A stretch of 64,000 nucleotides of DNA, taken from positions 34,646,001 through 34,710,000 of the forward strand of contig NC_091663.1 of NCBI RefSeq assembly GCF_042453785.1. Direction: 5' to 3'. Positions 1,960 through 55,550 of the stretch are shown here, piece after piece. Origin of the DNA: Malus domestica. Lineage: Eukaryota; Streptophyta; Magnoliopsida; Rosales; Rosaceae. The notes beneath the pieces were generated by a model, which was given only the letters and a program-made list of their open reading frames with translations, did no database searches and was not told the origin of the DNA. Within the stretch, counting starts at the first letter, position 1, and the number at the start of each line of letters is the position of its first letter. Made by a program: the position numbers and the translations under genes.

Positions 1960-4133
1960 AGGGGCTTTAGGGATCTTTGGATATGAAATTTGGTGGATAT
2001 TCTTTGGCTATTGGATTGCCCATGCTTATCCCAAAATTCACTAATGGTAGTGGACTTATGATCTGACACACCTGATCCTGATATCCTCCAAACACCAGGG
2101 TAGGCACGTGCTGATCGACACCCGAAGGTGACGAAGCCATACTAACATGCATGAGAAGCAATCGAGGAACGTGTTCAGAGCATACAACTAAACCGAGACA
2201 CTAGAAATGAACAATATAAAATTGAATGAGCAAAGGAATGGGTCTCACACTGAGAGGACTCGAAGATGCCGATGCGGGAGTGCCTTGACGTCAGGATTGT
2301 ACGCCTCGAATTCTAAGTCTTGAGGGGGCGCAAAACAAAACATGAGTGGACCAAGTTTATATATATATATAAGTAGTACTGAACAGTTATTCAACAATGT
2401 ACTAACCCCCAAAGTTTATGAAAACTCAATAGTATAATATGTAATAGGTTTTTTGAAACCCCTAGCATGCCGTAAAACCTTCAATAAAACATATATCATA
2501 TATAGTGTGCTAAATAGTGGTATCAGTATTGTCTGAAGGCATATAGAACTCTTCATTTAGAACACTTCATTCGCCCGTAGGCTCCTACATCACCCACATG
2601 AAGGCATATATAAGTTTCAATTGCCCGTAGGCTCCTACATCACCCACTCTAAGGCATATGTAAGTATCAATCGCCAGTAAGTTCCTACAGCACCCACCCG
2701 AATGCATATATAAAAGTATCATTTGCCCGTAGGCATATAGTAACCACTAGATAAGCACAAAAATTATTGAACATAATCTTTCCAAAAGTATATATATCTC
2801 AACGGAGCTCGGTAGCTCAAACATCATATCATAAATCATGTTCATAGTATATAGTCATCAATTATACATACTATGAAGAACGTAAAGTCGATAAGCATGA
2901 TAATTCATAAAACGTGAAACCAAATTATTCATAAACGTTTCATAAAACGTAACCATTAAATCATGCTTTTCATGTATGCATTTCTAATAGTAAAATATGC
3001 ATTTTTGAAGGGGTCCACTCACAGATACTCCGTCGTCGAAGAGCCATGCAAACTAGCGAACACGGAAACGCCACATACAATTGCACCTAAGCACATAAAG
3101 GTAGCAATTAATAAAAATCTATCATCATAACGATTGAATTTCGGGAAATGGACGTCATAAACGGATTCAGGACGTCGAAAAACATAAAGGGGACCTTGGG
3201 TGGCCGCCTACGCGCCATTTTGGGTCACTGAAAAATTCGTTGGTGCCGGAGCACAGTACCTTTGGTGGAGGTGCGTGCACCACACGCTGGCCAAGGCAGA
3301 CACCTACACACGCCTACGCCCAGGCCCACGCACAGCTTGGGATCTGGGTTGGTTCCACATAGGTTGGTCCAAGGGTTTAATGGGTCTGGGCTGCAAGGTT
3401 GGGCTTAGGCCTGGGCCTAGGTTTGGGTTTAGATAGGGTTGGATGCCTTGGGTTTAGACTTTAGGGCTATTAGACTTGGGCTGGGTTTAATGGGCCGAAA
3501 GCCCAGGTTTGCAAGGCCTAAAGGCCTGGGTTCAATGGGTCTGAGCTTGCCCTAAAGGGTATCGAGTTTTGGGTTACCAGGTCAACCCGAGTTGACCCAG
3601 TTTCAGACTGGTTTCAACGGAAAATGATGCCAGAGCTTCCTGAGCTCCGTTCAACTCCGATTCTCCACCCTAACCTACGATCTACCCACCAAATTGAAGA
3701 CCACCAAGAGTAGTTTATGAATATACCTTTTGTTTCCCAAGTGGTGGTCAGAGTTGGCCAAGAATGTCGTCTGAAACCCACGGCTCACGCCAGGAACCTA
3801 GGTTTGGTTTCCTTCCCACGTCGGGAGGTTGAGAGGCTCGTTGGGGGGTTGATGGTGTCGTAGTCGTCGTGTTGTGGGTGGGTGTGGGTTGCCAAAGGGG
3901 AGAGCACACAGAGAGAGAGTTTCGGGGGAGATGAGAGAAAAGGAGAAAAGTGAGGGAGGGAAAGAGAGAGAAAGAAAGCTGAGTTGCTTTGGGCCGGGGA
4001 ACAAAAACCGAAGGTGGGCCCCTTGGGCACACCAAACAAGACCCAAAAGTAAACATATTTCAAAATATCCCATTTTTCATGAAATTACAAAAATACCCTT
4101 TTGTTTCGAAAAACTCCGGGACGAGTTGTTACA
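1960..4133 (-). repeat. Degenerate LTR-retrotransposon-like repeat, minus strand
   Basis: Read on the minus strand, the block opens at 4133 with TGTAACAACTCGTCCCGG, a start resembling many plant Ty3-type LTRs. It continues through a GC-rich, G/T-biased stretch (3190-3900), an AT-rich part with a short tandem repeat (2565-2740), and a small open frame (2161-1967) of unknown product. No gag, protease, RT or integrase motif is visible and no matching second LTR or target duplication was found. It is most likely a non-coding LTR or large non-autonomous element remnant; the left limit is a guess. Confidence 0.4.
2565..2740. repeat. Imperfect tandem repeat, about 60-bp unit
   Basis: Three to four diverged copies of a unit containing 'GCCCGTAGGCTCCTACATCA' followed by 'AAGGCATATATAAGT' occur in direct order. 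The phase drifts and the last copy is truncated. Confidence 0.75.
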
Positions 4134-4770: not shown

Positions 4771-7700
4771 ATGGCCAGCGGCAGCAGCGCCGAAACGTCG
4801 TCGTTAATGAGGGACTTACTCAGGCAGGCAGGCGGAGTCGCGGTGGTCGACGGTGGACTTTCCACCGAGCTCGAACGCCACGGCGCTGACCTCAACGATC
4901 CTCTCTGGAGCGCCAAATGCCTCCTCACTTCCCCACACCTCATTCGCAAGGTATCCTCATCTCTCTCTCTCCCCTCTCCCTCTCTCTAGAAATGCTGTAT
5001 TGGGAATGTAATTTGCTTTGTTTTGTACTCTGATGAGTGTAGATATGTGCAGAATAATGGGTTTTTGCTAAGTTTCTCAAGTGCTAATTTTGCTGTGGAA
5101 ATTTTGATTTTTGACAATTTTGAGCTTTGTTTCTTTTGGAATTACCATTCGATTTTTGTTGGGAAATTTAGTTCTTATCTATGCATTTGGACCAAAAGTT
5201 GTCAGATTTTGCTGATTTTGTTTGCATCAGAAGGAAACTTGTTGCTATGCTTTGATCATGTATTTAGTGAGGAATGTGACTTCTATGAGCTAATCACAAC
5301 TTTAATTTGTATATTTCTCTATCGATAAGTCAGGCAGGATTGAACATTTGCTTTCTTTCTTGTGTAAAGGATTCAGCTTTTGTGAAGACGAAATCAAAAG
5401 AATGGAGATTGGTTTATGTAAATGTAATTCATGTGTAGACTTGATTAACTAATAGGACCATGTACCGTGTTGTTTTGTTGCGTATTGGAGCAGGTACACC
5501 TTGATTACCTTGAAGCTGGTGCAGATATCATAATCACAGCATCGTATCAGGTAATCCCGGTAACTGATGATGTCTCTCTCATTTTATATTTTTTCTTGAA
5601 ACTGAAAGTGTTAGTTTTTATGCAGGCCACCATTCAAGGTTTCAAGGCCAAAGGCTTTTCTACAGAAGAGAGTGAATCTTTGCTTAGGAAAAGTGTTGAA
5701 ATTGCCCGAGAGGCACGAGATATCTATTACGACAGATGTACTCAATGCTCTTCTGCTGACAGTGGAAATGGTAGAATTCTCAAGCGTCGACCAATCTTAG
5801 TTGCGGCATCTGTGGGGAGCTATGGTGCTTATTTGGCTGATGGGTCTGAGTACAGGTGAGTCAGTTCTGCTATAAAAATTCATTGCATCAGCTATTATTC
5901 CTGTTGGCTTTGGTTCTAGTACCTCGAATGTAAACAGTCGCAGGTCCTATAAATGTATTGTTGACATAATTATTAGAAAAATAACTCTGATATTTTCATT
6001 TCTTAATGAATAAGGAAATTACAACTGGTTTATATACATTTGTGAGAAATAGCTTAGTGACTAATTACCCTTGGTTAACTAACTAATCTAGTAATTAGTT
6101 ACATAGACAGTTGTAACAGACTTGTAACCAAAAAACAACAAACTATATATGTGACTCTTTACATCCCCTCAAGCTGAACGGAGGAGAGCCGAGAGAAAGC
6201 TTGGATTGAAGATATTGAAACCGAGCCTTAGAAAGAGATTTGGTGTGAATATCAGCAACTTGAAACTGAGTATTGATATACTGCACTTGAAGTAGCTTAG
6301 CAAGAACGAGTTCACGGATGTAATGATAATCAATTTCCACGTGCTTGGTACGAGCATGGAAAACCGGATTAGAGGCCAGAGAAATAGCGGAAACATTATC
6401 ACACCAAAGAGTGGGAATGGTAGTGAGTGGAAAAGCGACATCTCTGAAAATTTTACATATCCATGTAAGTTCAGCGGCTGTGTGCGCAAGAGAACGATAT
6501 TCAGCCTCGGTAGAGGAACGAGCAACTGTAGGTTGCTTTTTAGCACTCCAACTAATCAAGTTGCTGCCCAAATATATACAATAGCCACTGGTGGACCTTC
6601 GATCAAACACACAACCTGCCCAATCCGCATCAGAGTAGGCAGTAAGATGCAAGGGACACTTCTTAAACCACATCCCCTGATCAAAAGAACCTTTTAAAAA
6701 CCTTAATATTCTTTTGACAGCTTGAAAATGTGAATCCCGGGGACAGTGAAGGAACTGGCATACTTGATTCACAGCAAAGGAAAGATCAGGTCTTGTCCAA
6801 GTGAGATACTGTAAAGCCCCTACAATAGACCGGTATTCCTTAGGATCAGCTAAAAGAGCTCCAGTATGATCAAGCTTTTGAGTTCCCAGAGGAGTAGGAC
6901 AGGGCTTGCAACCGGCCATGGAAGTCTTGACTAAAAGATCTAAAGCATACTTGCTTTGAGACAGGAAAATACCATCATCAGATCGGTGGACCTCTAAGCC
7001 AAGAAAATAGTGTAAAGGCCCCAAGTCCTTAACTGGAAATAAGGAATTGAGTTGCTGAATAAAACGTTGACAGAGAGAGGTATTAGGACCAGTAACCAAG
7101 ATGTCATCCACATATACAAGGACGAGCACAGGGAATGGTTGAAGTTTCACAAACAGAGAACAATCAGATTGGGAGTTTGTGAAACCAAGAGAGACCAAAG
7201 CTTGAAACAACTTATCATACCAAGCCCGAGGGGCTTGCTTCAATCCATAGAGAGACTTCTGGAGTTGACAGACATAAGAAGGTTTGGAAGGATCAATGAA
7301 ACCTGGGGGTTGTTGCATAAAAACATCTTCTTGGAGATTGCCATGGAGGAAAGCATTGCTGATGTCAAGTTGATGTAAAAACCAATCATATTGCACTGCC
7401 ATTGTAAGAAGAATGCGAATAGTGACAGGTTTGGCAACCGGACTGAAAGTCTCCTTGAAATCAATACCCTCTTGTTGATGGAAACCCTTAGCAACAAGAC
7501 GGGCTTTATACCGATCAATAGAACCATCAGGTTTCCTTTTGATCCTGAAAACCCATTTGCATCCAACCAAGTTTTGATGAGGAGATGAGGGTACAAGAGT
7601 CCAAGTGCCGGTGGATTGAAGAGCTTGAAATTCGTCAAGCATGGCCTTATTCCAGTGATCATACTTGGAGGCTTGCAGATAAGTAGTAGGGACAAATGAA

Positions 7701-10700
7701 CTGGAATCAATAGGATGCTTCGTGGCTGCTAACACTTTAGGCTTGAAAATTCCTGCTTTAGATCGAGTGATCATTGGATGAGTGTTGGTAGGGACTGAGA
7801 TTGTTGAAAGTGAAGAATGAGAAGGCACCGGAGATGAAATAGAGGCTTGAGGTTGCTGGGGAGGTTGAGAGTGCCGTGTAGATGGTGAAGGTTGAAGGTG
7901 TTGTGGAGGTGGAGATTGCTGTGGAGAATGCACCCGAGAAGAGCTTGAGCATTGACCTTGAGAGAAAACTGAAAAAGGCGGTGGTGCAGGGGGACATGAT
8001 TGAGGAAATGGTAGGGAGAACTCAAGGGATGTAGGGGAGGGGACAGAGGAAGAACACTGTGACGAGCTACTGTGATGAAATGGAAAATGATCTTCATTAA
8101 AGACAACATGCCTTGAAATGTAGACTCTGTTAGAAGACACGTCCAAACACCGATAACCTTTGTGTTGAAGGCTATAACCAAGAAATACACATGGTTTGCT
8201 TTTACCATCCAATTTGGATTGCATATATGGCTTGAGCCAAGGATAGCAGCAGCAACCAAAAACCTTTAACTTGGAATAATCAGGAGGCTTTTTGAAAAGC
8301 ATTTCCCATGGAGACTGAGAAGATCCAGAAAGAGGCATCCGATTGATAAGATACAGTGCAGTAGAAAAGGCTTCTACCCAAAACTTGTGAGGAACTTTGG
8401 AAGCAACAAGAAGTGTCCGAGCAGTTTCAGTGAGATGTCGATGCTTGCGTTCCACACACCCATTTTGCTCAGGTGTGTGGGGACAACTGTACTGATGAGA
8501 AATACCATGTTGAAGCAAGAAGGAAGCAAAAGCAGAACCAGTGAACTCACCCCCTGAATCTGTTCGAAGAATCTTGATTTTATGGCCAATCAAGTTTTCA
8601 ACATATGCTTTGAAAGTGATAAAAGTAGAGAAGACTTCAGACTTGTGTTGTAAAGGAAACAGCCAACTGTATTTGCTATATTCATCCACAAAGAGTACAT
8701 AGTACGTATAGCCACTAACTGATGAAACTGGACAGGGACCCCAGACATCACAATGAATTAAATCCAAACTATGAGATACAGTGGTAGTACTAAAGGAAAA
8801 GGGCAACTTATGATTTTTGCCAATAGCACAGTCTGCACAAAAAAACTGAACAGAAGTTGAAGTATGAGGAACAAGCTTATTTGTACGTAAAATCCGTCTC
8901 AGAATGGCTGTGGAAGGATGCCCGAGTCGTTTGTGCCATTGATGTAAAGATGCTTGAGTGCTTACAAGTGCAGAATATGAAGCTTGGAATGGCTGACCAT
9001 GCAGAGGATAGAAACCATCCCTAACTGGGCCTCGAAAAAGCATCTTCCCAGTGGAACGGTCCTTGATGACAGAACCATCAGAATCAAGAGTTAAAGAGCA
9101 ATAATTGTCTCTTAGAAACTGATATGCAGAGAGCAAATTGAATTGCATCATTGGCACATGAAGAACATTATTTAATCGAAAGGCAGCATGTGGTGTTTGG
9201 AGAATAGAAGAACCTGTATGTTGGATGGGCATACCTTGGCCATCACCTGCATAAACCTTGTCTTCACCAGAGTACGGAATGGGGGAAGTGATATCGGAGA
9301 TATCATTGGTGACATGAGCAGTAGCACCAGAGTCCAGAAGCCATGTAGGCTGAGAAGAAGAGGCAGTAGAAGCACACATAGCAGCAAGCTTGGCAGGTGG
9401 AATCTTTCCAGCAAAGGCATGATTCATGCGAGCATAGCAGTCAAGAGCCTCATGATCAAAAGAATTGCATATTTGACAGGGAGACCGAGTTCCAGAAGAA
9501 CGAGGAAAGCCACCAGAGTTGCGATTATAATGACTAGTATTATGATGAAAAGAACCATTACCAGGGCCAGAGTTAGTATAATTTCCACGATAATTGCCTC
9601 GACCTCTGTTGTTCTTCTGAAAATTGTTGCGGCCACGATTATGGCGCTGAAAATTGTTGCGATTGTTGTAGGTAGAATGTTGAACAACATATGCCTGGGA
9701 GGGAGGAGGCGTAGGTAAGAGACCTTGCTGGAGAGGCGGAGCTTGAGCAGCAAATGCTTGAAATGGTGCAGTGAGAGACGACGAATGAGCTGTCTTCTTG
9801 CGATGCATAAAGATCTCTTTGTTCATGAGTAAGCCATGAAGTTCATCTAAAGAAGTAGATGAAATGCGAAGCATTATCGAATCAATGAAAGACTCGTAAT
9901 CATCCGAAAGGCCATTGAGTGTAACAGCAATGAGATCTGGTTCTGACACCGGTGCTCCGGCAGCCATAAGAGCATCAGAGATGCCTTTGATATGCTGCAG
10001 ATAATCAGAAATTGACAAATCACCTTTTTGAATCGCATGAAGACGCGATCGGAGCTGGTGAATGTGCGCCGCCGAGACTCCGCCAAACCGTTGTTCAAGA
10101 ATCTGCCATAATTCTCGAGATGAGGTGACGCCAACGGTGAACGGAATAAGATCTTCAGAGAGAGTGGAATTCAACCAGATCAGGATATTTTGATCCTTTT
10201 CAAACCAGATCTCGTAATTAGGATTAGGAATGGCAGTACCGATACCGTTTTGATTGAGAAGAAAGGGCGATGGACATTGCTCCGATCCATCGATGATACC
10301 TGTAAGTTTGTAGCGCCGGAAAATTGGAGCGAAAAGAGCTTTCCAGGTGAGATAATTGTCCTTCTTAAGCTTTGTAGGAACCATACAACTGATGTTTTGG
10401 ATTGAAATTGATGAAAACGAAGAATTAGGGTTTATCGGAGCTGAATTTGAGGAAATGGGAGTAGGATTCTGAGCGAAAACTTCTGGATTTGCAGGCGAAG
10501 AGGTAGAAGACGCCATTGTTGATCAAGGATTTGCAGAGAGAAAATGAAATCGGGTAGAAAAATCAAAGATTGCAGAGGAAGATCTCAAAGATTGCAGAGG
10601 AAGCTAGGATCGGAGGAAGCTAGGATCGGTGCGTGAGCAGAGAGGCTCGTGATACCATATTAGAAAAATAACTCTGATATTTTCATTTCTTAATGAATAA

Positions 10701-12421
10701 GGAAATTACAACTGGTTTATATACATTTGTGAGAAATAGCTTAGTGACTAATTACCCTTGGTTAACTAACTAATCTAGTAATTAGTTACATAGACAGTTG
10801 TAACAGACTTGTAACCAAAATACAATAAACTATATATGTGACTCTTTAATAATATGAGTAGGATTTTTGCTTAGGAAAATGTGTTCCTTTGATCCCAGAG
10901 AAAGCTTTGAAAGATGAAGTTAGATAGTCTTGGCTGCTGTTATTTGCATGAAAAGGCTATTGTTTTCTGAACTTGAAATGTCTTTTTAATATTCATATTT
11001 TGGGTCTGTCCCTTGGCAGTGGAAATTATGGTGAGGCTATGACGCTAGGAAGATTAAAAGATTTTCATCGGAGAAGGGTCCAAATCCTAGCAGAATCTGG
11101 TCCTGACCTACTTGCATTTGAAACAGTTCCAAATAAGCTGGAAGCTCAGGTAATGATCGCAAGCTTGTTGATAGCATTTAATTTCTTCTTGTCCTTGTTG
11201 GTTGAGGAAATCTGACAGGCCAACATTTCTTTATTCTAAGCTTCTTACTAGACTCGCTTACTGATAGCATTTCATTAGGTGGCTAATGTTTTAATTGGTA
11301 AGCACTTAATGTGACCGAAAGTGAAGGATATGAAATTTAGTAAAAATGGAGCTATTACTAAAGAGATGTATGTTAATTTGTTTTCAAGGAAAAAATATCT
11401 TGACATAATTTTGTTTTGCACTTTTAACTAGGTGTTTATTCTTTTCCCCAGTTAATCATGCTCGGTGTTTATGCAGGCTTATGCTGAGCTTTTGGAAGAA
11501 GAAAACATGCAACTTCCTGCATGGTTTTCTTTCAACTCTAAAGACGGCATCAATGTTGTTAGTGGTGATTCTCTCCTTGAATGCGCCACAGTTGCTGAAT
11601 CATGCAAGAAAGTTGTTGCAGTTGGAATCAACTGCACTCCCCCTAGATTTATCCATGGACTGTTAACATTAATTACACAGGTATAATCATTTAGGCTATT
11701 TGTATTGTGTTTGAATAAATTTAGTTTACGTTCTTTATCTTGATCAAACAATAAAAGCTTCAACTGAGCTATATGACCAACTGTTGGAGCAGCAATAAAA
11801 TTGCCTCCAGTGACTTTAAACTGTATTTACTGTTTCAATTTCTGAGATTTTCTAATTCTTAATGTTCAATGAAAAATCAACAAACTAAACATATCCTGCT
11901 GCATTTTCATATGCTATATTTCTGACGTATTTCTAATTTGTAGGCTTCCCGGAATAATTACAATTGTACATTACTCTGTTTGGAGTTCCTGTACTTATTT
12001 TCATGTTTAAATCCTTCAGGTGGCTACAAAACCAATTATTGTGTACCCAAATAGTGGTGAAAGCTATGATCCAGATAGAAAGATGTGGGTGGTAAGTGAA
12101 GTTTCTATGGTTGTCTCGTGTTTTCGATAGAATTATCTGTGAAAATATTGTTGTTATCTAGAAGGTGGAATTAGTGCGGGAAATCTGCGGTTGTGATATT
12201 CTTGTCCAGACACCAACTCTTCTGATCTCTTTTTTTTTTTTTTTTTTTCCGCGTTGCAGCAAAACACTGGGGTTTCAGATGAAGATTTTGTCTCGTATGT
12301 AAACAAATGGTGTGAAGCAGGGGCTTCCCTTGTTGGAGGCTGTTGCAGAACAACACCAAATACTATCAGAGCAATATACACGACTCTTCCCAATAGGTCA
12401 ACATCTCCACCGGAGCAGTAA
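4771..12421 (+). CDS. HMT2: Homocysteine S-methyltransferase (HMT2-like)
   Basis: Seven exons: 4771-4950, 5494-5550, 5626-5855, 11020-11149, 11477-11680, 12020-12091 and 12260-12421, giving 344 residues with all junctions in phase. The enzyme moves a methyl group from S-methylmethionine (or AdoMet) to homocysteine, making methionine in the cytosol. Visible marks are the N-terminal '[20 protein letters not shown]', '[17 protein letters not shown]', '[16 protein letters not shown]' and '[15 protein letters not shown]'. The zinc-binding cysteines are in 'GINCTPPRF' and 'GGCCRTTP'. Length and N-terminus fit the plant HMT2 branch better than HMT3. Intron 3 (5856-11019) is about 5.2 kb because a full copia element sits in it antisense; without that element it would be about 280 bp. 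Splice sites and reading frame look intact, so the gene is probably functional. Confidence 0.93.
5971..6161 (-). repeat. 3' LTR of the copia element
   Basis: 191 bp, same ends as its partner. The gag-pol stop codon lies inside it (frame ends at 6143). Confidence 0.96.
6143..10516 (-). CDS. Copia Gag-Pol polyprotein
   Basis: A single frame of 1457 codons without stops. Order of domains: Gag (about 1-330, rich in Asn/Gly/Arg near the end); a zinc-knuckle-like [14 protein letters not shown] (about 350); protease [10 protein letters not shown] (about 400); integrase with HKRLGHPS, the zinc-binding CADCAIG, DVWGP, a catalytic-core segment DSGGEF and [10 protein letters not shown]; a long Pro/Ser-rich linker (about 830-960); reverse transcriptase with [11 protein letters not shown] and the catalytic YVDDILV; and RNase H with YSDADWAG and [10 protein letters not shown]. 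The order protease-integrase-RT-RNase H defines Ty1/copia. The protein copies and integrates the element's RNA. Start taken at the first ATG 3' of the primer-binding site. All key motifs are present. Confidence 0.97.
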   Translation of the reverse strand: MASSTSSPANPEVFAQNPTPISSNSAPINPNSSFSSISIQNISCMVPTKLKKDNYLTWKALFAPIFRRYKLTGIIDGSEQCPSPFLLNQNGIGTAIPNPNYEIWFEKDQNILIWLNSTLSEDLIPFTVGVTSSRELWQILEQRFGGVSAAHIHQLRSRLHAIQKGDLSISDYLQHIKGISDALMAAGAPVSEPDLIAVTLNGLSDDYESFIDSIMLRISSTSLDELHGLLMNKEIFMHRKKTAHSSSLTAPFQAFAAQAPPLQQGLLPTPPPSQAYVVQHSTYNNRNNFQRHNRGRNNFQKNNRGRGNYRGNYTNSGPGNGSFHHNTSHYNRNSGGFPRSSGTRSPCQICNSFDHEALDCYARMNHAFAGKIPPAKLAAMCASTASSSQPTWLLDSGATAHVTNDISDITSPIPYSGEDKVYAGDGQGMPIQHTGSSILQTPHAAFRLNNVLHVPMMQFNLLSAYQFLRDNYCSLTLDSDGSVIKDRSTGKMLFRGPVRDGFYPLHGQPFQASYSALVSTQASLHQWHKRLGHPSTAILRRILRTNKLVPHTSTSVQFFCADCAIGKNHKLPFSFSTTTVSHSLDLIHCDVWGPCPVSSVSGYTYYVLFVDEYSKYSWLFPLQHKSEVFSTFITFKAYVENLIGHKIKILRTDSGGEFTGSAFASFLLQHGISHQYSCPHTPEQNGCVERKHRHLTETARTLLVASKVPHKFWVEAFSTALYLINRMPLSGSSQSPWEMLFKKPPDYSKLKVFGCCCYPWLKPYMQSKLDGKSKPCVFLGYSLQHKGYRCLDVSSNRVYISRHVVFNEDHFPFHHSSSSQCSSSVPSPTSLEFSLPFPQSCPPAPPPFSVFSQGQCSSSSRVHSPQQSPPPQHLQPSPSTRHSQPPQQPQASISSPVPSHSSLSTISVPTNTHPMITRSKAGIFKPKVLAATKHPIDSSSFVPTTYLQASKYDHWNKAMLDEFQALQSTGTWTLVPSSPHQNLVGCKWVFRIKRKPDGSIDRYKARLVAKGFHQQEGIDFKETFSPVAKPVTIRILLTMAVQYDWFLHQLDISNAFLHGNLQEDVFMQQPPGFIDPSKPSYVCQLQKSLYGLKQAPRAWYDKLFQALVSLGFTNSQSDCSLFVKLQPFPVLVLVYVDDILVTGPNTSLCQRFIQQLNSLFPVKDLGPLHYFLGLEVHRSDDGIFLSQSKYALDLLVKTSMAGCKPCPTPLGTQKLDHTGALLADPKEYRSIVGALQYLTWTRPDLSFAVNQVCQFLHCPRDSHFQAVKRILRFLKGSFDQGMWFKKCPLHLTAYSDADWAGCVFDRRSTSGYCIYLGSNLISWSAKKQPTVARSSTEAEYRSLAHTAAELTWICKIFRDVAFPLTTIPTLWCDNVSAISLASNPVFHARTKHVEIDYHYIRELVLAKLLQVQYINTQFQVADIHTKSLSKARFQYLQSKLSLGSPPFSLRGCKESHI
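6162..6172 (-). other. Polypurine tract
   Basis: Minus-strand TTGAGGGGATG immediately before the 3' LTR, the expected plus-strand primer for reverse transcription. Confidence 0.75.
10644..10657 (-). other. Primer-binding site (initiator tRNA-Met type)
   Basis: Minus-strand TGGTATCACGAGCC directly abuts the 5' LTR. It resembles the usual TGGTATCAGAGC site complementary to the 3' end of initiator tRNA-Met. Confidence 0.8.
10658..10848 (-). repeat. 5' LTR of the copia element
   Basis: 191 bp, TATTAGAAAAATAAC...GTGACTCTTTA on the plus strand. Differs from the other LTR at two sites near the ACCAAAA tract. Confidence 0.96.
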
Positions 12422-15246: not shown

Positions 15247-15808
15247 AATTTAATTTGGTGGAATTGCTTTTGGATTTTTGTTTGTATATTTTTTTGAATT
15301 GGTTTCAATTGATCTTGCACTTTGATATCATTAAACCTAAACAATTTTGGTTTCCTTCATGCAACATCTGTTTCGAATTAGGCAAGTTGGCTAGATCAGT
15401 GCACTTCTCCGGAAGCTTGAATCCGGTTCTTTTGAGGAGCTTTCGAGCCAGAACTAGTAATATAATATCCCTTGGGGTTGGAGATGACATACACGTTTCG
15501 TCGCATACGAGGTGTATTCCAGTTAAATCTGGCAATCTCTTAGTGTGATCCCCAAATTGTTAGGTTTCCCGTTCTAACAATTCAAAGGGTATTTCATTCC
15601 TACAACTTCTGCTACCAATTTTTAAATGGGAAAGTAACCAAAACTATTGTAATTTAAGGAACATGTTACTAAAAAAAAGTAAGTTTACTAGTATTTATAC
15701 ACATGTAGAACCACTGTATTGTTTACTCCAACGATCAACATTGTTCTAGCTTTGAGAAAGCTATATATAGTTTCAAATCTTTGGGAATTATTCGTTGTTT
15801 CGCAAACA
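15247..15808. other. Spacer between STN1 and the first polygalacturonase
   Basis: No supported gene. A minus-strand frame at 15535-15305 shows no recognisable domain. A TATA-like CTATATATAG lies near 15761-15770, 40-50 bases before the polygalacturonase ATG. Confidence 0.45.
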
Positions 15809-16897
15809 ATGTCAATCATCAACACACTCATTCACATTTTAATTTTCTTCTTCCTCCCTTTGCCGTTGTTTATTGGCATTGCACATAGCCAAAAAATACT
15901 GGACATAACCAAGTACGGTGCTGTGGGAGACGGGCAAACGGATGATTCCCCAGCTTTTGTGAATGCATGGAAAGATTTATGTCAAGGAATTAATGAAGCT
16001 ATTAATGGCATACCAACACTTAATGTGCCGGAGGGGAAAACATTCTTGTTGCAACGTTTAAAATTTGAAGGTCCATGCAATACAAAGAACGTTCACCTTC
16101 AAGTTCTAGGAAATTTGTTGGCACCTGCACGTGGTGCATGGAAAGAATGCGATTCGGAGGACTGGCTAAGTTTTTCAAACGTCGAAAACCTAATGCTCGA
16201 CGGCTCAGGCAAAATCGACGGCCAGGGGGCTGCATGGTGGAGCACTAGCCAATACGACGGGAGATCGCGCAAGCTCTTGGGGGATAACGACTGCAAACCA
16301 CAGAAGGCACTGCAATTCCAGAACTGCCAAAACCTCAAGCTCAGCGGACTCACTTTTCTAAACAGCCCACAAGCGCATATTGGTATAAATAGTTGTGACA
16401 ACGCAGATGTATCGCATTTGAACATACATGCGCCTGAAGACAGTCCAAACACTGACGGTATTGACATCTCCTTCTCGAGCCATGTCACCATTCGTGATTC
16501 GTCTATCGGGACAGGCGACGATTGTATTTCCATTGGCGACCGGTGTTCCTTTCTCTCCATCACCAACATTGCTTGCGGACCAGGTCATGGAATTAGGTAT
16601 GTCTGTTCTCCTATCTTCCATTAATTGTTAAATAAATATCGCCGAATGCCAATCGTGATGTCGTACATGTTAACATAGATTAATTTTCTTTTGCAAACAG
16701 TGTTGGAAGCTTGGGAGAAGATGGCGCTAGTAGTAAAGTGGACAATATATATGTGAAAGATTGTAGTTTCACTGGAACTACAAATGGAGTGAGAATAAAG
16801 ACGTGGCAGGGCGGCTCCGGGTATGCGAGAAACATCACGTTCGAGAGGATCAAACTTGACAGAGCTCAATATCCTATCATTATTGATCAGTACTATT

Positions 16898-17215
16898 TGT
16901 TGAATAGTAATCTTGTCTTAGGCCCAAGACAAGTGATCCAACCCAAAACCAATGAGAAAATGCTAGAAGACTCTAGCAAAGAAGGTAGAAAGTTGGAAAA
17001 GTCTAAGAAAATCTAGAAAAATGGTTTGTACGTAGAAAATGCTAGAACCATCATAAATCTATAGGTTATTATGCATGCCACGTACAAACCATTTTTCTAG
17101 ATTTTCTTAGACTTTTCCAACTTTCTACCTTCTTTGCTAGAGTCTTCTAGCATTTTCTCATTGGTTTTGGGTTGGATCACTTGTCTTGGGCCTAAGACAA
17201 GATTACTATTCAACA
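16898..17215. repeat. Perfect 136-bp inverted repeat (LTR head palindrome)
   Basis: Left arm 16898-17033 and right arm 17080-17215 are exact reverse complements by eye, with a 46-bp loop. Each arm starts with the LTR terminus TGTTGAATAG. Within each arm CTTGTCTTAGGCCCAAGACAAG is itself a smaller hairpin. Transcripts across it would fold into long double-stranded RNA. Confidence 0.92.
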
Positions 17216-17408
17216 TCCCCCCTTAATCTTGTCTTGTGACGCCGATTGAGTTTCTCAGTCTGACAAAGTCTTCTTGCCTAAGTGGTTTGGTAAATATGTC
17301 GGCGACTTGATCTTGTGACTTCATGTATTCCACTTGCACATCCTTTCTTGCAATGCACTCTCTTATGTAGTGATAACGAGTATCTATGTGCTTGCTCCTG
17401 TCATGCAA
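17216..17408 (-). pseudogene. Inverted 3' end of copia pol (RNase H tail) with polypurine tract
   Basis: On the minus strand the frame reads 'HIDTRYHYIRECIARKDVQV' and 'QVADIFTKPLRQEDF', the standard end of copia RNase H. It is followed by the purine run AAGGGGGGA directly before the LTR head at 17215. This is the normal order pol-PPT-LTR, but inverted relative to the rest of the element. It stops abruptly near 17408, where the sense RNase H segment starts inside a shared TGTCATGCA-like stretch. Confidence 0.88.
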
Positions 17409-19578
17409 TCTGGCTGAGAAACTTGCTAAAAGAATTAAGCATGCCACAAGAAGAACCAACAGAGATCTATGTCGACAACAAGTCTGCAATAGCCCTAGCA
17501 AAGAATCCAGTATTCCATGACAGGTTCAACAAGAATCCACTACTCCACTTGCTTCACCAACATCAACCAATCATGGTAATTCACCAGCATCAGCATCATT
17601 AAGTGGGAGTCTAAATGAAAGAGAAGTACCACGCACAAGAAGTCTACGAGATCTCTATGAGATAGCTGAAAGACTCGATAATCCTACACTTTTCTGTCTC
17701 TTTGCTGATTGTGAACCAGTTGACTTCCAAGAAGCAGTGCAAGATACTAAGTGGAGGAAAGCAATGGATGAAGAAATTGAAGCAATCCAGAAGAATGATA
17801 CATGGGAACTCGCTATTCTTCCGAAAGGACACAAAGCCATCGGAGTCAAGTGGGTGTATAAGACAAAGAAGAATGCCAACGGAGAGGTCGAAAGATACAA
17901 GGCGAGATTAGTGGCGAAGGGCTATAGTTAAAGAGCCGGAATCGACTATGATGAGGTATTTGCACCCGTTGCTCGTTTGGAAACTATACGATTACTAATT
18001 TCTTTGGCAGCTCAAAACAAATGGAAGATTCAACAAATGGATGTGAAGTCTGCTTTCCAAAATGGAGTCCTTGAAGAAGAAGTCTACATTCAGCAACCAT
18101 CAGGCTATGAAATCAAAGGGCATGAAGATAAAGTTCTGAAGTTGAAGAAAGCCCTATATGGGTTAAAACAAGCGCCACGAGCATGGAATAGTCGCATTGA
18201 CAAGTACTTCCAGGAGAACAACTTCACCAAGTGCCCTCATGAACATGCTCTCTACGTCAAAGTCAAAGATGGAGATATTTTGATTGTGTGCTTATATGTG
18301 GATGATCTAATCTTCACCGGAAGTAATCCAAGCATGTTTGAAGAGTTCAAGAGAGTGATGACCAAAGAATTCGAGATGACGGACATCGGGTTGATGGCAT
18401 ACTACCTAGGCATTGAAGTCAAGCAGAACGAAGAAGGTATTTTCATCTCCCAAGAAAGCTACACAAAGGAGATACTGAAAAAGTTCAAAATGGACGACTG
18501 CAAACCCATAAGCACGCCAGTGGAGTGCGGAGTCAAACTAACCAAGCATGACGAAGGAGAAAGTGTAGATCCAACATTTTTCAAGAGTTTAGTTGGAAGC
18601 TTGCGTTACTTGACTTGCACAAGACCAGATATTCTCTATGCCGTCGGATTAGTCAGTCGCTACATGGAGAATCCCACAACTACACATTTGAAGACAGCCA
18701 AAAGAATTCTTCGATACCTTAAAGGTACTGTTAACTTTGGCTTGTTCTATTCAAATTCTGATAACTACAAACTTGTTGGATATAGCGATAGTGACTGGGC
18801 AGGAGATTCCGATGATAGAAAAAGCACTACTGGATTTGTGTTCTTCATGGGAGACACTGCATTCACATGGATGTCGAAGAAGCTTCAAACCTCTTACAAA
18901 GGAGCCGAACAAGTGAAAAAGGTTCGTCTTCAAGTACTAAGAGGTGAGTTCGAATCTCTACAAATGAAAGGGTCTGAATCAATCTCTGATTATTTTTCAA
19001 GAGTCTTAGCCGTTTCCAATCAATTAAAAAGAAATGGAGAAAAGTTAGAAGATGTTAGAATTATGGAGAAGATACTACGCTCGTTGGACCCCAAGTTCGA
19101 GCACATTGTCGTGACGATTGAAGAAACAAAGAACTTGGAAGAAATTAGTATAGAGCAATTAATGGGTTCGCTACAAGCATATGAAGAGAAACATAAGAAG
19201 AGGCAAGGGAATGATGAGCAGCTCCTCCAGACGCATGTTCAGCCAAAGAAGAAAGAAGAAAGCTTCGATAACGAGAGAAGCCAGTACGAAAGAAGTCGTG
19301 GTCGAGGTCGCGGACGTGGACATGGACGTGGACGTGGTTGGAACTTCAACAACCATAGTAACTACGAAAGAGGAGGAAGCTCAACAAAAGGTCGTGGAAG
19401 AGGACGCTCAAACTTAAGGTATGAAAAATCTCAAGTTCAATGCTACAATTGTCAAAAGTTCGGGCATTATGCTTGGGAATGTAGAGCTCCAAGCAACAGA
19501 CCTGATGAAAAGGTCAATTATGTGAAAGAAGATAAAGAAGAGAATGGCATTGTGCTACTAGCATGCATAATAAGCTAG
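17409..19578 (+). pseudogene. Scrambled copia coding block: RNase H piece, RT-RNase H, then Gag
   Basis: 17409-17525 encodes RNase H residues ('VDNKSAIALAKNPVFHDR'). It then jumps to the integrase-RT linker and reverse transcriptase. RT is interrupted by one stop (TAA at 17929-17931, replacing a Gln codon) and continues open from 17977 to 19578 (533 codons). Motifs: [14 protein letters not shown], the catalytic YVDDLIF and RNase [13 protein letters not shown]. At 'FTWMSKK' (about 18886) the frame passes straight into Gag ('[19 protein letters not shown]'). The Gag piece includes an Arg-Gly-rich stretch and the zinc knuckle [14 protein letters not shown]. Gag normally precedes protease, so this order is reversed. 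No function is expected for this fusion, though it is open. Confidence 0.9.
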
Positions 19579-19938
19579 AATAATCTAGCAAATGCCTAGG
19601 TTGGTGTAGTATGTGCATGTTCATGCACTAGAAAACTCTAGTGATGGCATAGGTCGGCAAACATGCCTATAAATAGGTGTGTGATGCTATGCAACCATGT
19701 AAAAAAAGTGTGAAAGCAATCAAGAAGCAAGAAGAAGTGAGAGCAAGTAAGAGAGCAAGAAGTGTGAGAGTGTGAGAATGTTTGAGTGTTTCCTCTTGTA
19801 CTAAGTTTGTGTGAAAATAAAAATTTTTTGTATAACACTTTGAGTGTTCTTTCTCTTGCCTATCAATTCCGCTGCATTTCATTCTTCTTTGTGAGATAAA
19901 CATCTCCAAAGTAGTGAAGCCTTTTTTAAGTCCCAACA
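19565..19938 (+). repeat. LTR tail of the rearranged copia element
   Basis: Non-coding end of the element. It contains a TATA box (CTATAAATAGG near 19668) and a likely poly(A) region, and ends GTCCCAACA. It complements the LTR head at 16898, so each half of one LTR is found at opposite ends of the insertion. Confidence 0.75.
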
Positions 19939-20338
19939 CTATTGTAATGGGGAACACGATTGCAAAAGTCAGTCGTCGGCCGTGGTGGTGGCGGATGTGA
20001 CGTACATCGATTTTGAAGGCACTTCTGCGACGGAGGGGGCGATTAAACTCGATTGTGATCAAGTTTCAGGTGGCTGTCATAATATTGTGATGGATAGGAT
20101 TAATATAATGCCAGCGGTGAGGGATATGAAGATTTTTGCGACTTGTAACAACGCCAAAGGGACTTATGTCGGCACTACGGTGCCCAACGTGCCTTGTCTA
20201 CAGAGTTCAGCGACGGAGCCTACAAGGCCAACAACCATCTACACCGGAAGTGGAGGTTCTGGCAGTGCTAATATACATATAAACTACTACCTGTTTTGTC
20301 CACTGATGACGGTTCTTGTTGCAATAGCTGTTTTTTGA

Positions 20339-21495
20339 TTAACTTGTGTAACACATGCTTTTAACTTGAGTAACTTGCATCTGGTAAAATAATTGGTAGG
20401 TAAATAAATATTCAATTTACTTTTCCAACTAAAACTAGTTCTTTAGACGAAGGCAAACCATTACTAATGTTAGAAGGAAGACGAAAAATGAATAAATGAT
20501 GAAATAGCCAAAAATACCTCAAAGATTTGATGGGCAGCAAGTAACAATTATATGGATTAGAATGGTGATAAAAGCTCAGAAAGTGACACGATAGTCAGAA
20601 AGAGTTTACATGGCCTGGGTACACTGACGTTCTGTGTCAATAAAAAAAACACGTTTAAATTGTTTTGTCTAAATCTCATTATGGCATTAGTATGGGATGT
20701 AACATAACGGTGTACACTTTACTGAGCAATGATAAATTCGTCAATCTAAAGTTTACAATTACGATTATATTTACTCTATAATTGCGTTTTTATTAAGCAT
20801 AAATTCATACTATACTTATTTGGTAATTGCCTGCTACACCTACAGGTCTTTAAAACTAGTTAAAACTATGACCAACCATAGAAAACAATTAAACACATAT
20901 AGAGTAAAGTCCTCGCTTTAGTAAAGCTAGCTGGAGCTGCGTTCTCTCACATTAGATCAAAGTTAGAATCACTTTTCGTAATAGTTATTTTGAGGATTGG
21001 CCATGAATAAACCTTTGGTCCGACAAATTGTTAGGAACAGGAAACCTAACACTTCGATTTCCTTGATGGAACATCCGACTCCAAGTTACAAGAAGTAAAC
21101 TAAAGCCAATTCCAATTGTAACATCAAAATATGCCTATGAATTTCGAGCAACCTGATGACTGGATGTGTCCTCCCTCCATGATTGTGGGGTTTTAGGTAG
21201 AATTAATTAGTGCTTTCCTTTATATTAGTTTCTTATTCATGCTTCCAAATTAATTACCGTCTCTCTCCGGTGCCTTGTCGTGGTTGTAGTTGATAGGTGG
21301 GTTTGGGATACAGCGGGAAACTATTCCTAACGGTAAGAGGATTTCCTTCGTACCAAGTTGCAATGGAAATTAACCAAAACTAATAGTATTTTGGAACAAA
21401 ACTAACATTCCAAGTAAATATAGTAACACTACATTCTTGTTTAGTGTTTACAATCCTTGTGTTCTTCTAGCATCTGAGACATCTTCTCTGTTGTT
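20339..21495. other. Spacer between the two polygalacturonase genes
   Basis: No gene seen. The block 20440-20580 ('GGAAGACGAAAAATGAATAA', 'AGATTTGATGGGCAGCAA') is clearly related to 24085-24215, downstream of the second polygalacturonase. The duplication therefore covered the gene and its 3' flank. Confidence 0.65.
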
Positions 21496-23376
21496 TTGAA
21501 AGCAATGCGGTTTAACATACTCGTTCGCATTTTAGTTTTCTTCTTCCTCACTGGGTCCCTGTTTATTGGCATCGCACATAGCCAAAAAATATTTGACATA
21601 ACCAAATACGGTGCTGTTGGAGACGGACGAACCGATGATTCCCCGGCTTTTCTGAAGTCATGGGGTGACATATGTAACGGTGAGAATGACGCTGTACTGA
21701 CTCTTCTTGTTACAGAGGGCAAAACGTTCATGTTGCAACCTATTAAATTTGAAGGTCCATGCAAGCCAAAAAGTCTACTCTACATATTCATGTTTTAGGT
21801 AACATGTTGGCACCTAACCGTGGTGCATGGAAAGAATGTGAGTCGGGTAGCTGGCTAAGTTTTTCTAATATTGAAAATCTCATGGTCGACGGCTTGGGTA
21901 AGATCGATGGTCAGGGTTCTGCATGGTGGAGCACAGCCTAATACGACGCAAGATCGCGCAAGCTCTTAGGGGACAACGACAACTGCAAACCACAAAAGGC
22001 ACTTGAGTTCAACAACTGTTTGAACCTCAGCGGACTCCCTTTTTTGAATAGCCCACAAGCACATATCGGTATAAACGGTTGTGACAATGCGGATGTCTTG
22101 CATTTGAACGTTCATGCGCCAGAAAACAGTCCCAACACTGACAGTATTGACATCTCCTTCTTAAGCTATATCAGCATTCGAGATTCATTTATCAGAACAA
22201 GCGACGATTGTATTGCAATCAACGGCGGGTGCTCCTTTCTCTATATTACCAACATTTGCATGCGGACCAGGTCATGGAATTAGGTATGCCCCCACACATT
22301 CGAATGACTTAAAATAGTCTCTTGTCATGTTAATGCATCATGTATGTTTTATTATTCGACCAACGAATTATTGTGATGTTGTCCATGATATTAACCTCAA
22401 TTGTCTCTCGCAAACAGTGTTGGAAGTTTAGGAGCAGATGGAGCTACTGAGAAAGTGGATAATATCTACGTGAAAGATTGTAGTTTCACCAGAACTATAA
22501 ACGGAGCAAGGATCAAGACGTGGCAGGGTGGCTCCGGGTACGCGAGAAACATAACGTTTGAGAGGATCAAACTTGATGGAGCTCAAAACCCTATTGTTAT
22601 TGATCAATATTATTGTAATGAGGACCAGAACTGCAAAAGTCAGCCGTCGGCATGGGGGGATGCGACGTACATCAATTTCGAAGGGACACCAGCCACAGAA
22701 GGTGATTCAGTTCGACTGCGATAAGATTTCGGGTGGCTGTTATAATATTGTGATGGATCAGATTGATATAAAGTATTCGGTGGGGGATAAGATGATTTTT
22801 GCGTCTTGCAACAATTCCGAAGGAACTTCAATCGGAACGACGGTGCCTAATGTGCTTTGTTTGAAGAGTTCAGGGACGAAGCATGCGACGCCAACCGAGC
22901 CAGTTACACCAGCCACAGCGGACCCTAAGATACTTCCGCCTCCCTCTCCAATTAACCCTCCACCACTACCAATCATGCCACCACCGTTGCAGCCGGCACC
23001 TACCGTACCACTTCCCTCTCCACAACCACCAGTACCAACACCTGTACCAATCGTACCTCCGCCGGCGCCACCAGCGAAACCAATCAAACCATTGCCTTCG
23101 CCACCAATTGTGCCAATCATACCATTGTTGCCACCACCACCAAAACCAGTCATACCACCACCACTTGAACCTATCACGCCACCACCACCGGAAGACATCA
23201 TACCGCTGCCGCCCGATGCAATTAGTCCACTCCCCTCACCACCTGAGCCACCAACCCCGCCCACGCCAGTGCCACATGCGGAGGGACAACTTGATATCAT
23301 GGAGGCGCCAAGGGAGGGTGACGAATCAGATATATACAACTTCAACAACAACTATTTTTCTTATTACTTTGTGTAA
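21496..23376 (+). pseudogene. Polygalacturonase (GH28) pseudogene with proline-rich C-terminal tail
   Basis: Tandem partner of the gene at 15809. Exon 1 runs from about 21496 to 22283 and exon 2 from 22418 to 23376, with the same intron position. Lesions: a frameshift near 21765, a TAA at 21939-21941 replacing a Gln codon, a frameshift near 22250 just before GHG, and another near 22700. Active-site motifs have also drifted: NTDG is NTDS and GTGDDC is RTSDDC, while RIK is kept. After the conserved 'GTTVPNVLCLKSSGT', a tail of roughly 150 residues rich in PPP, PPLP and PSPP replaces the short Gly/Ser tail of the first gene. The tail resembles extensin-like cell-wall linkers; its frame is open to 23376. 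Not functional as an enzyme. Confidence 0.9.
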
Positions 23377-53338: not shown

Positions 53339-53346
53339 TTATACCC

Positions 53347-53353
53347 TATAAAA
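53347..53353 (+). promoter_or_regulatory. TATA box of the 53464 gene
   Basis: TATAAAA within CCCTATAAAACCC, about 110 bases before the ATG. In the tandem copy the same place reads CCCTAAAACCC, two bases short. Confidence 0.65.
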
Positions 53354-53463
53354 CCCTAGCTAATTAGCAAAGCTACTACCATATCAAACCCTGGCTAATT
53401 AGCTACTACGTACTTCAACAAACTCGATACCTACAAAAATCACCTGCAACCAGAGAAGGAAAA

Positions 53464-53961
53464 ATGGCCGTTCTGCCGATGCCATTCTCCATTGTACCAC
53501 ACCATCGTCGCCATAAGCTTGTTTGTAAGGCCAGTTCGGTCATCACAACACATCAACCGCAAACCCTATTCCAAAGAGTCAAGTTTCAAGAGCCCACGCA
53601 ACATAAACTTGTTAGCGATTACCAAAGTTTGTTTGGGTTGGACGTTCACATTCTCTCGAAACCCGAGCGAAGTAAGAAAGAGTGTTTTGGAGGACAGGAC
53701 AAAGAAATTGCTGCTGTAATCCAGAGGTTGGAGGCATTTGCGGAGAGAGCCATAGAATTGGAGACGCAGAAGTTCGAGAATAAAACGAAAGGGTTAGAAC
53801 TATCAGACGAAGAAAGCAGGATAGTGCAAGATTTGAGCAGAGAGATTGTTAGCAAGTTTTTGGAGAAACCCATCCAGTTCTTGAGGAGCAGTGACGAGGA
53901 CTTGGAGGAAAAATTGAAGGAACTCCAATTCCTTGCGACCATTCTTGAAGAGTCATGTTAG
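53464..53961 (+). CDS. Small plastid-type protein with glutamyl-tRNA-reductase dimerisation-like domain
   Basis: Single-exon frame of 165 residues. The N-terminus (MAVLPMPFSIVPHHRRHKLV, then CKASS) looks like a chloroplast transit peptide, with a VCKA-type cleavage context near residue 21. Residues about 75-160 are helical and charged: 'IQRLEAFAERAIELETQKFE', 'LSDEESRIVQDLSREIVSKF', 'LEKPIQFLRSS'. This pattern (AERI..ELEK, then DLSRGIV.KFLH.P...LR) is that of the C-terminal dimerisation domain of plant glutamyl-tRNA reductase (HEMA). The substrate-binding and NADPH domains are absent, so it cannot be the enzyme. If real, it might bind or compete with the reductase in tetrapyrrole synthesis; that is inference. 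ATG, TATA box and an intact frame support a gene. Confidence 0.7.
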   Translation: MAVLPMPFSIVPHHRRHKLVCKASSVITTHQPQTLFQRVKFQEPTQHKLVSDYQSLFGLDVHILSKPERSKKECFGGQDKEIAAVIQRLEAFAERAIELETQKFENKTKGLELSDEESRIVQDLSREIVSKFLEKPIQFLRSSDEDLEEKLKELQFLATILEESC

Positions 53962-54636
53962 AAAGGAGGAATTCATGCATGGCTAGCTAGCCGCCACTGC
54001 AGAAAAAAAAAAAAAACCCTTTTCAGATGAAAGTTTTGTCTTTGGCTGACGAGAGATTCCATGGCACAAATTTCGTAGTGCAAAATCCATCGCTCAAAAG
54101 TTTGTCCGATGAAATATAAGCATTCGTTTGGCGAACATAGTTGACCCGACGAAACAAAGTCGTTGGGTATAAAGGAGCCGCTTCTTGGTCATAGAACTAT
54201 TTGTTTGTTTGGATTCTTTTGTACATGTATTCTTGCGATGCCACGAGAATTATTATTTGTTTGTAATTAAATCATGAACAATATTGTTAATGCAAAGAGT
54301 TTAGGTTCTTGCCCCTTTTTGGGAAAGTTTCAAAGAGTTACTAATATAGCTGGCTTTCAATTTGTCCCTTTTTCCAATAATATTGACGGTAATTTTAGAT
54401 GTCCTAATTACGAATGGAATGAAGCGAAGTAATTTTTAGATGTCCTTGGAACAACATGACGCTTGTTACCATTCCGCATAAATTATAACATGTTTATTTA
54501 TTTTTATTAATAATACCCTAAAACCCTAGCTAATTAGCAAAAAGCTACTACCATATCAAACCCTAGCTAATTAGCTACTACGTTCTTCAACAAACTCGAT
54601 ACCCACAAAAAATCACCTGCAACCAGAGAAGAAAAA

Positions 54637-55110
54637 ATGGCCGTTCTGCCGATGCCATTGTCCATTGTACCACACCATCGTCGCCATAAGCTTGTTTGTA
54701 AGGCCAGTTCGGTCATCACAACACATCCACCGCAAACCCTATTAGTCAAGTTTCAAGAGCCTACACAACATAAACTTAGCGATTACCAAACTTTTTTTGG
54801 GTTGAACGTTCACATTCTCTCAAAACCCGAGCTAAGTAAGAAAGAGTGTTTTGGAGGACAGGAGAAAGAAATTGCTGCTGTAATCCAGAGGTTGGAGGCA
54901 TTTGCGGAGAGAGCCATAGATTTGGAGACGCGGAAGTTCGAGAATAAAACGAAAGGGTTAGAACTAACAGACGAAGAAAGCAGGATAGTGCAAGATTTGA
55001 GCAGAGAGATAGCAAGTTTTTGGAGAAACCCATCCAGTTCTTGAGGAGCAGTGACGGGGACTTGGAGGAAAAATTGAACTCCAATTTCTTGCGACCATTC
55101 TTGAGGAGTC
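54637..55110 (+). pseudogene. Tandem copy of the GluTR-dimerisation-like gene, frameshifted
   Basis: Lies 1173 bp downstream of the first copy and is highly alike, including 5' and 3' flanks. A 4-base deletion near 55007 (GAGATTGTTAGC became GAGATAGC) shifts the frame, so translation ends at 55044 after 135 residues and the last helix ('KFLEKPIQFLRSS') is lost. A 6-base loss follows near 55077. The TATA box is also shortened. Two small in-frame deletions lie in the N-terminal half. Probably a dying copy; a truncated product cannot be excluded. Confidence 0.8.
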
Positions 55111-55550
55111 ATGTTAGAAAGGAGGAATTCATGCATGGCTAGCCGCCACTGCAGAAAACCCTCAGACCAAAATTTTGTCTTTGGCTGACGAGAGATTCCA
55201 TGGCACAAAGTTCGTAGCGTAAAATCCGTCACTTAAAGGTTTGTCCGACAAAATATAAGCATTCGCTTGGCGAACACAGTTGACCCGACGAAACAAAGTC
55301 GTTGGATATAAAGGAGCGTTTCTTGGTCTAAGAACTATTTGTTTGTTTGGAATCTTTTTTGTACATGTATTCTTGCGATGCCACGATAATTATTATTTGT
55401 TTGTGATTAAATCATGAACAATATTGTTAATGCAAAGAGTTTAGGTTATTGCCTTAATTTTTTGGGAAAGTTTTTCAAAGAGTTTTTTTTTTTCCTGAAC
55501 AAACGTTATTATCTACATTAAAGAGGAAGAGGTTGGCTTAACCTCACAAT

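Follow-up and report, generated by a model that had tools for sequence, protein, structure and literature searches.

Probable origin by template switching of a scrambled copia-type insertion in a Malus domestica polygalacturonase exon

How does a retrotransposon insertion come to have the ends of a single, orderly integration around an interior whose pieces are inverted and out of order? The locus that raises this question lies in a 64-kb window of the Malus domestica genome (C3:34646001-34710000; assembly of 651 Mb in 19 contigs), by which we mean the whole stretch of DNA analysed. A Ty1/copia insertion at 16898-19938 begins with TGTTGAATAG (16898) and ends with TCCCAACA (19938), that is, TG...CA, and the 5-bp sequence CTATT flanks it on both sides. 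The host gene encodes a GH28 polygalacturonase, as identified by a Pfam match in its upstream part (PF00295, 4.4e-45). The uninterrupted site can be seen in the tandem paralogue at ~22505-22715, to which the joined flanks align with a gap of 0 at the insertion point and no apparent loss of host bases. The single LTR-type integration proposed in a preliminary description of the window is supported by these ends, the duplication and the paralogous site. The two polygalacturonase genes of the tandem pair (15719-23376) share ~76% identity over the first part; the first gene carries the insert, and the second continues into a proline-rich reading frame. The features of the locus are as follows.

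16701..16897, + strand: left part of the GH28 exon; the gene starts upstream at ~15719
16893..16897, + strand: left target-site duplication, CTATT
16898..17079, + strand: LTR head (U3), sense; 16898-17033 is the left hairpin arm and 17034-17079 the loop, the assignment of its last 6 bases being putative
17080..17215, - strand: LTR head, inverted; 136 bp, 100% complementary to 16898-17033
17216..17405, - strand: inverted polypurine tract (PPT) and RNase H end; over 17216-17400, 97.8% identical to L012 and 97.3% to L010
17398..17524, + strand: RNase H piece, sense; over 17400-17524, 99.2% identical to L013 and L010
17522..18883, + strand: RT and first part of RNase H; 98.3-98.6% identical to L009-L012; RVT_2
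18878..19567, + strand: gag piece; 99.4% identical to L009 and L011; Retrotran_gag_2
~19561..19938, + strand: LTR tail, with the remaining U3, TATA box (19666), AATAAA (19816) and CA terminus; its start depends on the LTR parent
19939..19943, + strand: right target-site duplication, CTATT
19944..20338, + strand: right part of the GH28 exon; the joined flanks form a single frame to the stop

We compared the insert with 28 loci of the same family in the same genome (L009-L036), which are 5.1-5.2 kb long where measured (L009-L013 and L015). The native LTRs are 518-536 bp long (L009-L013), and canonical ends with a 5-bp duplication were found in all five native copies whose outer ends were displayed (L009-L013). 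The pieces found were in native order at 27 of the 28 loci, some of which are truncated or gapped in the stretch fetched; L036 has the native order plus an extra inverted LTR piece. The exception, L016 (C5:40829000-40838900), holds two copies in opposite orientation. Its minus-strand copy consists of the leader and only 24 gag bases joined to RT, with protease-integrase deleted, and sits at the RNase H of the plus-strand copy; the two are probably nested.

Alignment to the native copies bore out the scrambled interior piece by piece. Copia-type RT and gag domains are present (RVT_2, 2.7e-61; Retrotran_gag_2, 5.4e-17). The RT frame contains one in-frame stop, and the gag piece continues the frame of the RT-RNase H before it, giving a 533-aa ORF (17977-19578), a fusion that is probably fortuitous. 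Protease and integrase had been described as missing, and indeed the protease-integrase region of L010 gave no good match to the insert (best E 0.51); its leader and PBS did no better than E 0.032 (leader). The PBS motif of the native copies was matched in the insert with at best 4 mismatches in sense and 3 in antisense, and the exact PPT motif occurs in antisense only, at 17209, the best sense match having 5 mismatches. We found no second LTR, PBS, sense PPT or native order gag-protease-integrase-RT-RNase H in the insert, which is a derivative of a Ty1/copia element and not a complete member.

The LTR layout needed partial revision: head, inverted head and tail are present as first described, but the sense head passes 17033 and reaches ~17079, and head and tail come from a single split LTR rather than from two. 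In sense, the distant relatives L043 and L045 align to 17073, L044 to 17071 and L046 to 17057, and in L044 tail sequence resumes ~20 bases after the loop match. Since the distant LTRs of L043, L044 and L045 run from the head into the loop, the loop (17034-17079) is not foreign. Judged from sequence, the head (16898-17079) and tail (~19561-19938) are nearly the whole of one split LTR, and with both from one LTR the termini date an LTR, not the scrambling. None of the best 40 of 94 candidates scored in the assembly was a native parent of the LTR head. A split of the LTR at a perfect palindrome was considered but not adopted, because L013 has the same right half without the left half. The U3 differs strongly between subfamilies, and GCTAGA..TCTAGC palindromes recur. 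In the L010 U3 (LTR 1954-2270) we also counted four GAANNTTC sites against a shuffle mean of 0.03, compared with none in L009 and one in L013; we take these sites to resemble heat-shock elements.

In L010 coordinates, the insert comprises gag 2800-3489, RT 4873-6231, RNase H 6292-6415 and, inverted, 6413-6597 plus LTR 1-136. Within the inner block of ~2.5 kb, the native pieces follow one another in precisely the opposite of their usual order, one of 24 possible arrangements, with no overlap beyond the joins, and the adjoining RNase H pieces have a common breakpoint at L010 ~6413-6415. Short overlaps of 2-8 bp were found at four of the five internal joins: 8 bp between inverted and sense RNase H (17398-17405), 2-3 bp between RNase H and RT (17522-17524), 6 bp between RT and gag (18878-18883), and up to 7 bp, GCATGCA, between gag and the LTR tail (19561-19567) if the LTR parent read like L013. 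The join of the sense and inverted LTR heads (17079/17080) has no clear overlap, and the join at 17405 falls within a native inverted repeat, CTGTCATG. For two random points in L010, the chance of an overlap of at least 2, 3, 6 or 8 bp is 0.18, 0.06, 0.0025 or 0.0004, respectively, values raised somewhat by the choice among many copies, as overlap length was taken from the farthest-reaching copy on each side.

The pieces also differ in their nearest relatives. The gag piece is nearest to L009 and L011 (4 differences each; all others at least 18), the sense RNase H piece to L013, L010 and L012 (1, 2 and 3 differences), and the inverted RNase H piece to L012 and L010 (5 each); the RT piece is patchy, with 19-23 differences to L009-L012. 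These distances suggest a mixed ancestry for the insert, though one parent may have been mixed already. Within the coding pieces, 3 of 2,353 bases differ from every compared copy (26-28 copies per piece), which, together with the identical hairpin arms, makes both insertion and scrambling look recent.

Every join lies inside the element, and an LTR terminus is used at none of the five internal joins. Self-integration of cDNA, raised in the preliminary description as an alternative, is known for retroelements (available part of PMC2644782) but gives products in which an LTR terminus abuts internal sequence; it is largely refuted by these joins, and we consider it scarcely credible. Had linear cDNA fragments instead been joined by host end joining and then integrated, many pieces, mixed orientation and mixed ancestry would be accounted for. 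Plain end joining typically leaves overlaps shorter than 6-8 bp, however, so that those at two of the joins are long for it, and the lack of any join at an LTR terminus likewise tells against this route, which we regard as improbable.

With a probability of roughly 0.6, we favour a single aberrant round of reverse transcription in which microhomology guided the switches between templates, followed by normal integration. The overlaps at four of five joins, the mixed ancestry and the reversed order make template switching, also preferred in the preliminary description, the likeliest source. The nascent DNA would have jumped repeatedly between sites on templates packaged into the same particle, with short matches of 8, 2-3, 6 and up to 7 bp directing the jumps and inverted repeats assisting them, and template polarity would have flipped twice during synthesis. 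The minus-strand path would lead from the LTR tail to gag, on to RT-RNase H and the next RNase H piece, then through the RNase H end, PPT and LTR head in opposite polarity, and back to the LTR head. Single use of each stretch fits the removal of copied template by RNase H, and a gag piece like L009/L011 beside RNase H pieces like L010/L012/L013 is as expected of recombination between co-packaged RNAs. Because the aberrant product kept both true ends of one LTR, integrase would have inserted it with a 5-bp duplication in the polygalacturonase exon. The anatomy, ends, duplication, pieces and overlaps described above are observed in the sequence; that the jumps preceded integration, and the order in which they occurred, we infer. 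Fold-back of a single strand was rejected as the sole cause, since the inverted arm passes the LTR start into the PPT and RNase H.

Several observations count against template switching. The 17079/17080 join has no clear overlap, and another join overlaps by no more than 2-3 bp, a length often reached by random points; the breakpoint common to both RNase H pieces would equally result from a plain break; the mosaic may predate the insert in one parent, and the parent LTR was not among the best 40 of 94 candidates. A further locus, L047 (C15:20454600-20456000), runs from RT-RNase H-PPT-LTR to LTR position ~397 and then into inverted RNase H and RT. Its joins differ from those of the insert, and on the readable side it ends abruptly inside RT with no LTR terminus, so that inverted forms of this family also arise without canonical ends.

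The same ends and duplication would be expected of a full-length insertion that was later broken and then rejoined, or filled in as the break was repaired; belonging to a single split LTR, they need not mean, as the preliminary description had it, that the scrambled interior entered as one unit. A normal copy would have integrated, been broken at several points and been rejoined or patched by microhomology-mediated repair, so that both ends retained a portion of an LTR. The single split LTR, which keeps the same ends and duplication, makes this sequence of events possible, and the non-overlapping pieces, the common breakpoint at L010 6413-6415 and the short overlaps agree with it; the identical hairpin arms would then represent both LTRs of a single insertion. 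On the other hand, the breakpoints are all internal to the element, with no apparent loss of host sequence; the 3 private bases in 2,353 allow only a short interval for a second event; and the nearest copies of gag and RNase H differ, though the parent may be mixed. We consider breakage after integration unlikely, though a serious contender.

The preliminary description had also suggested that such a structure could seed a new non-autonomous family, and that its junctions be sought elsewhere in the genome. No second copy sharing the joins was found among the places scored. A match along the entire insert was obtained at its own locus only (best 40 of 731 candidates scored; among the matches listed, 176 in all), and the same holds for the full length of the hairpin region (best 40 of 94). 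At the RT/gag join, 39 of the 40 matches listed end at the join and the remaining one is the insert (best 40 of 217 candidates); across the inverted-RNase H/RNase H/RT joins, none of 78 other matches spans two pieces (best 40 of 214 candidates), four places passing a join by at most 9 bases and none reaching the next piece. For the gag/LTR join, the negative result comes from the whole-insert search, and all repeat counts from the genome searches are lower bounds. The scrambled insert is apparently single-copy. Since PBS, sense PPT and second LTR are all absent, it cannot on this anatomy found a non-autonomous family; we rejected mobility of the scrambled form on these grounds and on the lack of a second copy among the scored places. 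By its structure, a form without a PBS or sense PPT can go no further except through accidental copying. TRIM- and LARD-type families have several copies of the same form, two LTRs, and a PBS and PPT in cis, and the insert differs from them in each respect (as to copies, among the scored places).

An assembly artefact at this hairpin-rich repeat deserves mention, as hairpins and repeats are difficult to assemble and the structure is seen in one assembly only. Correct ends with a duplication, in-frame flanks and overlaps at the joins speak against it, as does the lack of close relatives of the LTR head among the best 40 of 94 candidates scored in the assembly, and we judge it very improbable. 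Elsewhere in the window, a second copia element lies on the minus strand at 5971-10848, with LTRs at 5971-6161 and 10658-10848 that are 99% identical and an open gag-pol ORF of 1457 aa; its LTR ends are TA, not TG/CA, and there is a possible ATAAT duplication. A tandem duplication of ~1 kb with 91% identity occupies 53341-55484.

Plant LTR retrotransposon complexes formed by abnormal template switching before integration have been described by Sabot and Schulman 2007 (PMC1950507). Like those complexes, copia included, the insert is an abnormal structure within a single 5-bp duplication; they consist of two complete cores with a common third LTR (PMC1950507), whereas in the short insert a single LTR is split, some pieces are inverted and the block order is reversed. 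Among the mostly open-access titles and abstract openings surveyed, including that of Sanchez et al. 2017 (PMC5668417), we found no LTR insertion with reversed block order, and searches of the literature on self-integration with an inverted LTR, rearranged autointegration products and scrambled LTR retrotransposons returned no match.

The LTR heads form a hairpin of the element's control region (U3), with 136-bp arms that are 100% complementary (16898-17033 and 17080-17215). Its predicted fold of -252 kcal/mol is far beyond chance (100 shuffles: mean -68, SD 5; z -37). As the hairpin lies within an exon, a transcript of the host gene would contain it, and with the TATA box at 19666 a transcript from the LTR itself would exit into host DNA. 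Exact sequences of at least 24 nt (26-50 nt) are common to the arm and 4 of the 29 loci compared (L010, L012, L021 and L040). Polygalacturonase read-through of the U3 hairpin might yield siRNAs able to silence related active copies at their LTR promoters, a speculative role that we think quite improbable. The available part of PMC3440606 describes maize Mu killer as a rearranged, partly inverted element copy, with hairpin RNA proposed to come from flanking-gene read-through; as expected of a locus of that type, the insert has a long inverted repeat of its element's control region. Mu killer, as described there, originated from MuDR, a DNA transposon that it silences, whereas the insert is known here from sequence alone.

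The insert does not reveal a new mobile family. A silencing role, if true, would make it the LTR-retrotransposon counterpart of Mu killer, and the perfect U3 hairpin inside an interrupted host gene makes the test of silencing simple. With its reversed blocks, two polarity changes and single use of each template stretch, the insert is a young, readable footprint of how far plant reverse transcription may stray and yet yield an integrable molecule.
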